Source: Planctomycetia bacterium
GTDB lineage: Bacteria > Planctomycetota > Planctomycetia > Gemmatales > Gemmataceae
DNA: 41,821 nucleotides
Assembly: GCA_005808665.1 (NCBI GenBank)
Contig: SYLG01000028.1
Span: forward strand, 1 to 41,821
Reading direction: 5' to 3'
Below are positions 878 to 5,654 of this stretch, piece by piece. The notes below the pieces were generated by a model. That model ran no database searches, was not told the DNA's origin, and saw only the letters and a list, made by a program, of their open reading frames with translations. A program made the translations under genes and the position numbers. The first letter of the stretch is position 1; the number at the start of each line of letters is the position of its first letter.

Positions 878-2110
878 ATGATGCATAGTGAATGGATTGA
901 TATTTCCCCCTCCCATTGGAGAGCATTGACCCCTGAGGCTTTGCCTGAACCATTTCGAAAATCCATAGTTAGTGTTGGCAATTTTGACGGGGTCCACCTC
1001 GGACATAGAGACCTTTTTACCCATGCAAGGCGGTTGGCCCGACCAGCCCAAAAGGTGATTGCCGTAACATTGGACCCTCACCCCAGGGCACTTCTTCGAC
1101 CAGAAGACACCGGCCCACCTATCCTGTCCCTTGAACGCAAAGTGCAAAAACTACGCCAATGTGGCGTGGACCAAGTGGTTGTCTTCCGGATTGATTCTTC
1201 ATTCCTTGAGCTTAGTGCCCAAGACTTTTTTGACCGCCTTATCCGGGGTATTCTTGATCCTCAGGGCCTCATTGAGGGGGAAAATTTTTGTTTTGGAAGC
1301 AAAAGGCAAGGGACGATTAGCCAACTAGGTCAACTTTGCAATTTGTCGGGAATCGTGCTCCAAATCCACCCCGGATTATTCGATGACAAGGATTGGATTT
1401 CAACAAGTCGCATTCGAACCCTGTTGTTGGAAGGTGAGGTGGCCAAGGCAGCTCGGCTGTTGGGGGCACCCCATGAAACCACGGGAGAGGTGATCGCAGG
1501 GGCCATGCGGGGAAGGTCGCTTGGGTATCCCACAGCCAACCTTGCCTTGCCCCAAACCATTCTCCCGGCGTTTGGGGTTTATGCCGCAAAGGCAATCCTG
1601 GCCAACGGACAAAGCCATGAGGCCGCGGTTAACCTTGGTCCAAGTGCAACCTTTGGTGAAACAGGGGTGAAAATCGAAGCCCATTTGTTGAATTTTTCAG
1701 GCCACCTCTATGGTCAAACCATTCGCCTGGAATGGATAGACCGGATCCGCAGTCCCCGCTTGTTCACCTCTCCGGACGCCCTAAAGTACCAGATTCAAGC
1801 GGACTTGGTCCAAATCCAAACGGTCCTGTCCGCCTCCCGCTCATCCTCAGGCAATTTGTCCCCAAACAATGAAGGCGAAACTTTTTCCCTGGAAAACGCC
1901 CAACGGGTTGTCGATGCATTGGGGGCCCCACTGGTTGGGGAAGGGGGTAGGGTTTTGGTGGTCGGTCGTTCTGGCCCCGCTTTATTGGTTCAATTGGACG
2001 GATCATGCCAATTTTGCCCCAATAGCCTTAGAGTACTTTTGATGGGGATTGAAGGTGAGCTTGCCAAACAACTTCCGGGTATAGAGTATCTTGAACCGGT
2101 AATGACCTGA
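878..2110 (+). CDS. ribF: Bifunctional riboflavin kinase/FAD synthetase fused to a NifU-like C-terminal domain
   Basis: RibF makes FMN from riboflavin and then FAD. The FAD synthetase nucleotidyl-transfer motif GNFDGVHLGH is at residues 34-43. The riboflavin kinase signature RGRSLGYPTANL lies near residues 210-222, followed by NLGPSATFG and an EAHLLNF...LYG segment. A normal RibF would end near residue 315. This protein runs to 410: after a Ser/Asn-rich linker comes a domain of about 75 residues with the features of the NifU C-terminal (Nfu) Fe-S scaffold. These are VDALGAPLVGEGGRVLVV, then a CxxC (Cys377, Cys380) in DGSCQFCPNS, then GIEGELAKQLPGIEYLEPV. The frame is continuous with no sign of a frameshift. 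The thioredoxin gene follows after 27 bp and is probably cotranscribed. The ATG at 881 is an alternative start. Confidence 0.93.
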   Translation: MMHSEWIDISPSHWRALTPEALPEPFRKSIVSVGNFDGVHLGHRDLFTHARRLARPAQKVIAVTLDPHPRALLRPEDTGPPILSLERKVQKLRQCGVDQVVVFRIDSSFLELSAQDFFDRLIRGILDPQGLIEGENFCFGSKRQGTISQLGQLCNLSGIVLQIHPGLFDDKDWISTSRIRTLLLEGEVAKAARLLGAPHETTGEVIAGAMRGRSLGYPTANLALPQTILPAFGVYAAKAILANGQSHEAAVNLGPSATFGETGVKIEAHLLNFSGHLYGQTIRLEWIDRIRSPRLFTSPDALKYQIQADLVQIQTVLSASRSSSGNLSPNNEGETFSLENAQRVVDALGAPLVGEGGRVLVVGRSGPALLVQLDGSCQFCPNSLRVLLMGIEGELAKQLPGIEYLEPVMT

Positions 2111-2137: not shown

Positions 2138-2965
2138 ATGAACGGCCATTGCATTGATGTGTTGGAAGCGGATTTTGACAGGTTGGTTGGGGAGGCGAGT
2201 AAAACCCGCCCTGTTCTCATCGATTTTTGGGCCAAATGGTGCCAGCCTTGCCTCAAACTCAAACCCCTCCTGGAAGCCGCCGCCGAAAAAGCCAGCGGTG
2301 CTTTTTTGTTAGCCAAAATCGACATAGACCAAAACCCGAATCTCGCTTCTGCTTTTCGCATTTCAAGCGTTCCAACCTTAGTCGTTTTTCATGAAGGGAA
2401 CCCGGTTAATCGACACACCGGGATCCTGACGCCCTCGGAAATTGAAGCCTTCCTGCGGCCCTACCTCCCAGGCCCCGCGGAGGAATTCCTAAAAAAGGGA
2501 TTGGAAGCAACCACCGCAGGGGATGATGCCCTGGCTTTAAAATGTGCCCAGGATGCCTTTGCCGCGGATGAAACGGACGATCGGGCCCGTTTGTTTCTGG
2601 TGAAATGCCTTTTGAAATCAGCTTCCGGCAAGCCGGATATTTCGTATATCGAATCGCTTTTGGAGCCATTCTCCGATACAGGACCCCTTGCCGCCGATGT
2701 CCTGAAACTCAAAGGTTCCCTCTTTTTTGTCCAATGCCAACCCGTTACCGGGGTGGGTTCAGAGCTTTATCAACAGGGGTGTGCCAAGGCCTCAACGGGT
2801 GCCCCGGAGGAGGCAATTGAACTCTTCCTGGAGGCCGGGGAGCTCAATGACAATCTCGCCCGTGGGCCTGTTAAATGGGCACTCATTCAAGCATTTCACC
2901 TTTTGGGTGAGGGACATCCCAAGCTTGCCTCATTTCGGTCAAGGTTGATGATGCTCCTTACTTGA
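2138..2965 (+). CDS. Thioredoxin-domain protein with C-terminal TPR-like region (CnoX/YbbN type)
   Basis: Residues 1-110 form a thioredoxin fold with the redox-active WCQPC motif (Cys35 and Cys38; the second X-Pro differs from the usual GP) and the cis-proline segment SVPTLVVF. Residues 115-275 are helical, with repeats reminiscent of the tetratricopeptide half of YbbN/CnoX proteins (for example LALKCAQDAF and APEEAIELFLEAGELN). No signal peptide is visible, so it probably acts in the cytoplasm as a thiol-redox protein or holdase linked to protein folding. An AAGGA ribosome-binding site precedes the ATG. It follows the RibF-NifU gene by 27 bp. Its stop overlaps the end of the opposing gene by 8 bp. 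E. coli CnoX lacks an active CxxC, so the intact pair here suggests an active oxidoreductase. Confidence 0.85.
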   Translation: MNGHCIDVLEADFDRLVGEASKTRPVLIDFWAKWCQPCLKLKPLLEAAAEKASGAFLLAKIDIDQNPNLASAFRISSVPTLVVFHEGNPVNRHTGILTPSEIEAFLRPYLPGPAEEFLKKGLEATTAGDDALALKCAQDAFAADETDDRARLFLVKCLLKSASGKPDISYIESLLEPFSDTGPLAADVLKLKGSLFFVQCQPVTGVGSELYQQGCAKASTGAPEEAIELFLEAGELNDNLARGPVKWALIQAFHLLGEGHPKLASFRSRLMMLLT

Positions 2966-3812: not shown

Positions 3813-5654
3813 ATGAGTTTGACACCCTTGACATCGAAAACCGCGAGCCCGACCCCTGTATTTCTTACAGCCCCAATGCCTGAAGAATCGAATGCGGAAC
3901 CATTCTGGGATACCGTTTCCCTTATGCCTGCCCCGGTTGTTCATACCTATGGATCTCCTGTGATCCAATTTCGGGGGCTCGCCGGGTTTGATAAACCGTT
4001 GACCCCTGCCACCCGTTCGGTGGTCCTCCTTCAAGGGACGCCCTGGATAAAAACGATGGGATCCCTGGCCAGCCCGCTTCAGGTGCAGTCATGGAAATTT
4101 CCCTCGCCTTGGGAAACAAGTTCCGCCTTGGTCCCTCCCAAGGCCGGGGAGGAAATGGCCTTACCGGAAACCGTGGCTCAACCCTGCATGGTTGCCAGCC
4201 TGCCCAAAACGCAAACCAGAATCAAACCACCCGTGGGTATGTCGCATCTGAAAGATAGGCTGCTTTGCCTGTTGCAGCCCCCCTTGGAGGGTATTCTTGG
4301 GCAGGAAATGAAACTCCCGTTTCAACCCTACCCGTATCAACTTCAGGGAATTGCTTTCCTCATGCCAAGGGACAATGCCCTTATCGCCGACGAAATGGGT
4401 TTGGGAAAAACGATTCAGGTGATTCTTTCGATTCGGCTAATGGTCCAAAGGGGACAACTCAATCGTATTTTGGTGATCTGCCCAAAGCCATTGGTCCACA
4501 ACTGGATGCGTGAATTCCGGCTTTGGGCTCCAGAAATTCCTTTTGAATCGATCACCGGGAATTCCGAAGAAAGACGCCGCAGTTGGCAATTATCCAACGC
4601 TCCGGTGAAAATCGCCAATTATGAGATTGTCACTCGCGACGAGGAAGATTTCATTCGCAATGAGGTGGCCTTTGATTTGGTTGTCCTGGATGAAGCCCAA
4701 CGGATCAAAAACCGCGATGGCAAAACTTCACTGGTTGTAAAGTCGCTCAAACGCAACAAAAGCTGGGCCATGTCTGGTACACCGATCGAAAACCGGGTAG
4801 ACGATATGGTCAACCTGTTTGAATTCATTGCACCCGGATTGATTCCCCCGGCCACCCCATTTCGAACCATCCCAAGTATTGTAAAAGATCACATCATCCG
4901 CCGAACCAAGGAGATGGTTGCCGGGCATATGCCCCAGAGGATCTACCGCGACCTGACCTTGGACCTCTGTCCTGAGCAGCAAGAAACCTATGATTTGGCC
5001 GAAAAAGAGGGCATTGTTCACCTGAACCAATTGGGTGATACGATCACCGTCCAACATGTTTTTGAATTGGTCATGCGGCTCAAACAGATTTGCAATTTTG
5101 ATCCCAGGACGAACAAAAGCGCCAAGTTGGAACGCCTTGTCGCCGACATGGAGGAAGTTTCCGCAAGTGGGCGAAAGGCAATCGTGTTTTCCCAATGGGT
5201 GGACCCGTTGGAAATCATTGCGATTGCCCTCAAGGAGCATAATCCCCTTTCGTACCATGGTAGGATCCCTTCAAAAAGTCGGCAACCGATCCTGGATCGA
5301 TTCAAGGAGGATCCGGATGCCCATGTCCTTTTGATGAGTTATGGTTGCGGAAGTGTCGGGCTCAACCTTCAGTTCACCAACTATGTTTTCCTGTATGACC
5401 GTTGGTGGAACCCGGCGATTGAGGATCAGGCCATCAATCGGGCCCATCGGCTGGGGCAAAAAAGCGAGGTTTTCATTACCAGGTTTACCAGCACCGGCAC
5501 GGTGGAGGAACGCATTGCCGCTGTGCTTGACAAAAAGCGGCAACTATTCGATGAGATGCTTTCGCAAAATGGCCCGCCCCTTAGTCTTGGCCTTTCGGAA
5601 AAGGATATTTTTGGGCTATTTAATATCAAAGCTAGGCCTAAACGGTTGGCGTAA
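3813..5654 (+). CDS. SNF2-family DEAD/DEAH-box helicase (ATPase)
   Basis: The protein is 613 residues with the full set of SNF2 motifs: motif I DEMGLGKT (about 192-199), motif Ia ILVICPKPLVHNW, motif II DEAQ (about 293-296), motif III SGTPIENR, motif V GSVGLNLQ and motif VI QAINRAHRLGQ (about 540-550). It would be an ATP-driven duplex-DNA translocase or nucleoprotein remodeller. The first 170 residues are Pro/Thr-rich and match no domain I know; there is no SWIM zinc finger or nuclease. The start at 3813 is the only ATG available before an in-frame TAG at 3774, but its ribosome-binding site is weak. It stands alone, with no methylase or restriction gene nearby, so a defence role is not supported by context. 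Confidence 0.9.
   Translation: MSLTPLTSKTASPTPVFLTAPMPEESNAEPFWDTVSLMPAPVVHTYGSPVIQFRGLAGFDKPLTPATRSVVLLQGTPWIKTMGSLASPLQVQSWKFPSPWETSSALVPPKAGEEMALPETVAQPCMVASLPKTQTRIKPPVGMSHLKDRLLCLLQPPLEGILGQEMKLPFQPYPYQLQGIAFLMPRDNALIADEMGLGKTIQVILSIRLMVQRGQLNRILVICPKPLVHNWMREFRLWAPEIPFESITGNSEERRRSWQLSNAPVKIANYEIVTRDEEDFIRNEVAFDLVVLDEAQRIKNRDGKTSLVVKSLKRNKSWAMSGTPIENRVDDMVNLFEFIAPGLIPPATPFRTIPSIVKDHIIRRTKEMVAGHMPQRIYRDLTLDLCPEQQETYDLAEKEGIVHLNQLGDTITVQHVFELVMRLKQICNFDPRTNKSAKLERLVADMEEVSASGRKAIVFSQWVDPLEIIAIALKEHNPLSYHGRIPSKSRQPILDRFKEDPDAHVLLMSYGCGSVGLNLQFTNYVFLYDRWWNPAIEDQAINRAHRLGQKSEVFITRFTSTGTVEERIAAVLDKKRQLFDEMLSQNGPPLSLGLSEKDIFGLFNIKARPKRLA

Follow-up and report, generated by a model that had tools for sequence, protein, structure and literature searches.

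In a 41,821-nucleotide stretch of planctomycete DNA (family Gemmataceae, order Gemmatales; hereafter the window, meaning the whole stretch analysed), one open reading frame joins a riboflavin kinase/FAD synthetase (RibF) to a NifU-like tail, which raises the question of whether two genes have truly become one, by which route, and to what effect. The best explanation, held at a probability of about 0.75, is that operon partners were fused, and that one protein makes FMN/FAD and carries Fe-S clusters side by side.

The architecture is that of a RibF followed by an additional C-terminal domain (Table 1). An earlier note on this DNA had described RibF and a NifU-like tail in one frame at 878-2110, and both its coordinates and its domain calls were right (ORF, Pfam); the CxxC that it placed at Cys377 and Cys380 is read directly in the sequence. 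The FAD_syn module precedes Flavokinase, both above the Pfam gathering scores, and the fused protein scores 232 bits with the ribF model TIGR00083 (NCBIfam), whose cut-off is 184. The motifs GxFDGxHxGH, ISSSxxR-like (ISTSRIR) and PTAN were all read in the protein and in its alignment to solved RibF chains. Known RibF (TIGR00083; 2x0k, 3op1, 1mrz) thus shares the same two catalytic modules in the standard order, above curated cut-offs, but the standard chain ends where the linker begins here and has no Nfu tail. The alignment to solved chains spans residues 20-319 at most, which agrees with the proposal that the fusion is foreign to standard RibF. In family searches the fused protein was the sole RibF and also the sole Nfu domain found in the genome, and with both in one polypeptide, both jobs depend on it. 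AlphaFold2, run on the fused protein with a two-sequence input, gave a mean pLDDT of 37, and the model was neither used nor searched.

Table 1. Features of the fused gene, its product and the genes downstream in the window.
Feature	Position	Strand	Basis
Fused RibF-Nfu gene, 410 aa	878..2110	+	single ORF, ATG to TGA; fused orthologue at 75% identity in G069/L003
FAD_syn (FMN adenylyltransferase) module, residues 27-177, with GNFDGVHLGH	956..1408	+	PF06574, 1.7e-35; alignment to solved RibF structures
Flavokinase module, residues 195-316, PTAN at 218-221	1460..1825	+	PF01687, 2e-33; alignment to C. ammoniagenes RibF
Variable linker, residues 317-346	1826..1915	+	37% identity, dN/dS 0.54 vs G069; stop and nfu start here in G070
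Nfu (NifU C-terminal) domain, residues 347-410	1916..2107	+	PF01106 at 351-403, 34 bits; 88% identity, dN/dS 0.088 vs G069
CxxC motif, Cys377-Gln-Phe-Cys380	2006..2017	+	sequence; Cys377 = 2006-2008, Cys380 = 2015-2017
Thioredoxin + TPR_20 protein, 275 aa, with WCQPC	2138..2965	+	Pfam
613-aa ORF, SNF2-type helicase motifs (e.g. DEMGLGKT)	3813-5654	+	sequence motifs

The tail belongs to the Nfu family. The NifU profile search that had been suggested for it returned a PF01106 match over residues 351-403 (E-value 4.4e-7 in the whole protein, 3.7e-8 and 33.8 bits with the isolated tail), the 30-34 bits of the fused-protein match lying above the gathering score of 27 bits. In phmmer queries with the tail, solved Nfu domains ranked first, 2z51 at 1.6e-8 and then 2jnv, with 1xhj, 2m5o and 1veh also found. 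The match covers positions 12-64 of the 67 in the profile, and the N-terminal helix region, though divergent, can be aligned; the Nfu of the window genus scores 34 bits, when stand-alone Gemmatales copies mostly reach 50-70. The tail is called divergent on account of this low score and of the 11 unmatched N-terminal profile positions. All 46 Nfu domains in the alignment for the order keep the CxxC, among them those of both fused species of the genus and of the third species, G070. Single-domain Nfu proteins (e.g. S. epidermidis Nfu, PDB 1XHJ) are of the same family and have the CxxC, and relatives of the window have such an nfu beside ribF, whereas here the domain is attached to RibF and its N-terminus diverges. 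A carrier Nfu module at the C-terminus also occurs in known multidomain proteins: NfuA combines it with a degenerate A-type domain, and NifU with NifU_N and a central ferredoxin-like part. In these the partner is an Fe-S-related module, in contrast to the flavin-cofactor enzyme of RibF-Nfu, and the fused protein fails the equivalog models of both NifU (TIGR02000, 10.7-14.1 bits vs a cut-off of 273) and NfuA (TIGR03341, 11.4 bits vs 269).

Binding and transfer of [4Fe-4S] clusters is documented for Nfu domains (PMC8593673). Since the genome encodes IscU at another locus, “carrier” would, on the model of single-domain Nfu proteins, be a better name for the tail than de novo scaffold; of the “Fe-S scaffold” label in the earlier note, the Nfu family assignment therefore stands and the scaffold role gives way. 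In six loci with a stand-alone nfu beside ribF (L015, L021, L024, L026, L031, L034), the proline after the CxxC is replaced, and some of these copies are also altered in the DGG region; judging by these residues, their carrier function may differ.

The possibility that two genes are joined only through a frameshift or a misassembly was considered, as the assembly of the window is fragmented (186 contigs) and most relatives have two genes. It can practically be dismissed: in the independently assembled second species of the genus (G069, also labelled L003 and L056) the fusion is likewise uninterrupted, at 75% identity, so that the frame in which a frameshift had been feared is open in both, the substitutions across the G069 fusion follow a coding-like pattern, and three other genera have the fusion as well. 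Between the two species (NG86), constraint is highest on the Nfu part (88% identity, dN/dS 0.088), followed by the RibF part (76%, 0.148), and lowest on the linker (37%, 0.538). By this pattern, selection acts on the tail as a protein domain and constrains it no less tightly than RibF. That it could instead be a decaying, non-functional Nfu remnant, as its low PF01106 score beside those of stand-alone relatives might suggest, is very improbable: no other segment is as conserved between the fused species, the CxxC is retained, and no other Nfu was found in the genome.

The third species of the genus, G070 (L033), points to the route of fusion. There the RibF C-terminus stops at a TGA and the nfu ATG follows about 44 nt further on, in a different frame; the G070 contig ends here and includes no more than 23 residues of RibF, and one wrong base could make a fused gene look like two. 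The spacer of the window and of G069 is about 40 nt shorter and has neither that stop nor that ATG. The linker (residues 317-346) is, from this comparison, the likely counterpart of the former intergenic spacer. In the proposed course of events, ribF and nfu would have started as adjacent, co-oriented neighbours, as they are in most members of the order, where the stop of one and the start of the other often overlap; shortening of the spacer in the ancestor of the two species would then have eliminated both the ribF stop and the nfu ATG, merging the frames.

The same region bears on whether the fusion is partly cosmetic, i.e. whether free Nfu is translated from an internal TTG or GTG start, the long product being chiefly a RibF that carries its tail as a passenger. 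The window has in-frame TTG codons at 1856 and 1919, from which additional free Nfu could be made; the TTG at 1856 aligns near the ATG of the separate nfu of G070, and G069 has an in-frame GTG close to that position. The original nfu ATG, however, is lost in both fused species, there is no good Shine-Dalgarno stretch upstream of the TTG, and near-start codons are expected by chance in a linker of 30 codons, all of which makes a merely cosmetic fusion improbable.

Synteny extends downstream. A thioredoxin/TPR_20 gene starts about 28 nt after the fused gene in the window and is also directly downstream in G069 (85%) and G070 (65%); it was not detected at the other Gemmatales loci compared. It is probably an operon partner of the fused gene in this genus. 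Its dN/dS between the window and G069 (NG86) is 0.115.

Linkage of the two genes was surveyed in 102 genomes of the order, “directly downstream” being defined as nfu within about 250 nt of ribF. The genes were fused in 6 genomes and nfu was separate and directly downstream in 51, giving 57 of 102 with an adjacent or fused pair. In three more, nfu lay beyond the adjacent class at no more than 600 nt from ribF. It was located elsewhere, unlinked to ribF, in 25 genomes, some only through contig breaks, absent from 12, and undetermined in 5. Among 39 separate pairs inspected, 17 had the usual ATGA overlap: the nfu ATG is in frame and lies at -4, counted from the end of the ribF stop. No RibF ORF was seen in flanks of about 1.5 kb at any of the 50 Nfu loci examined outside the order.

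Besides the window, the fusion occurs in the second species of the genus and in three other genera of the order: G032 in g11 (locus L032), G130 and G146 in g40 (loci L058 and L080), and G263 in g44 (locus L057). Linkers differ among the fusions of separate genera, and that of G032 has none. A RibF tree with 65 rows requires about four changes of the fused label; the backbone is weak and the fusions were not dated from the tree, so that independent origins are likely, not proven. The best reading of these sequences is a recurrent ribF-nfu fusion that joins operon partners into one polypeptide. The tree also places a RibF from outside the order (L053) beside the window with non-starred support of 85/94, a position set aside as probable long-branch attraction.

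At five further loci (L008, L013, L019, L051, L086), ribF and nfu share a frame and are separated by one stop (TGA, TAA or TAG); a single substitution or readthrough would fuse them. Recoding was rejected for the g36 matches, in which multiple stops belong to the spacer between two separate genes.

As for the Fe-S assembly setting, contig 64 of the genome has a complete and compact iscR-iscS-iscU-iscA-hscB-hscA operon, in which the hscB call rests on position and sequence, as no Pfam match passed 1e-5. SufB/D had no match in the genome, with the control positive in 14/14 genomes. Across the 102 genomes of the order, 30 had SUF only, 59 a strong IscU match only, and none had both, a distribution suggesting that within the order one Fe-S assembly system has been replaced wholesale by the other. 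SUF was lacking in 50 of 60 genomes with linked ribF and nfu and in 17 of 37 with unlinked or no nfu (Fisher p 2e-4, uncorrected for relatedness). A tie between SUF loss and the linkage was not built on, given this lack of correction and the even split of the fused genomes for SUF presence (3/3).

By analogy with the two families, the N-terminal modules would carry out riboflavin phosphorylation and FMN adenylylation, and the tail would bind a [4Fe-4S] cluster through its CxxC, take it from the ISC machinery (IscS/IscU/IscA, HscB/HscA) and hand it on to apo-proteins. In Nfu domains a single cluster is usually bridged by two CxxC motifs, and from this family knowledge cluster loading should pair two RibF-Nfu polypeptides. 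Enzymatic activity, cluster type, cluster transfer and Nfu-mediated dimerisation are all expected here from what is known of the families. The two activities are assumed to sit side by side on a flexible linker, without mutual regulation. The joined flavin and Fe-S supply proposed in the earlier note thus holds as a single polypeptide, the extent to which the sequences speak for it.

Functional coupling would go further: the Fe-S state of the tail could regulate FMN/FAD synthesis (e.g. through RibF dimerisation), or the same flavo-Fe-S clients could receive both FAD and cluster. The linkage is widespread in one order, Nfu stays constrained after fusion, and recurrence, with four label changes and different linkers, makes the pairing more than a one-off. 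Coupling is nevertheless rather unlikely, as no conserved interdomain interface is visible in so poorly conserved a linker, nfu is unlinked or missing in the 25 and 12 genomes counted above, and plain operon co-expression accounts for the linkage equally well. Unlikely, too, is its more specific form, a dual-cofactor station in which cluster loading, by pairing polypeptides, gates FMN/FAD synthesis, or in which FAD and [4Fe-4S] are co-delivered to flavo-Fe-S enzymes; if true, the Gemmatales ribF-nfu pair and its repeated fusion would reflect a real link between flavin and Fe-S supply. The simplest reading remains that co-expressed neighbours were fused, and that the fusion was tolerated and maintained by natural selection.

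A literature search on RibF or riboflavin kinase together with NifU or Nfu found no relevant paper within a coverage that leaves out most subscription journals. All parts of the protein are known, and within the literature covered it is the domain architecture and the order-wide ribF-nfu pairing that appear to be new. Flavin synthesis and Fe-S delivery, normally studied apart, are neighbours across a planctomycete order and joined in four genera, and a gene fusion ranks among the better clues that proteins work together. If the link is functional, RibF-Nfu would offer a direct route to test the coordination of FAD and Fe-S supply; if it is not, it would still be a clean case of operon partners turned into one essential protein.
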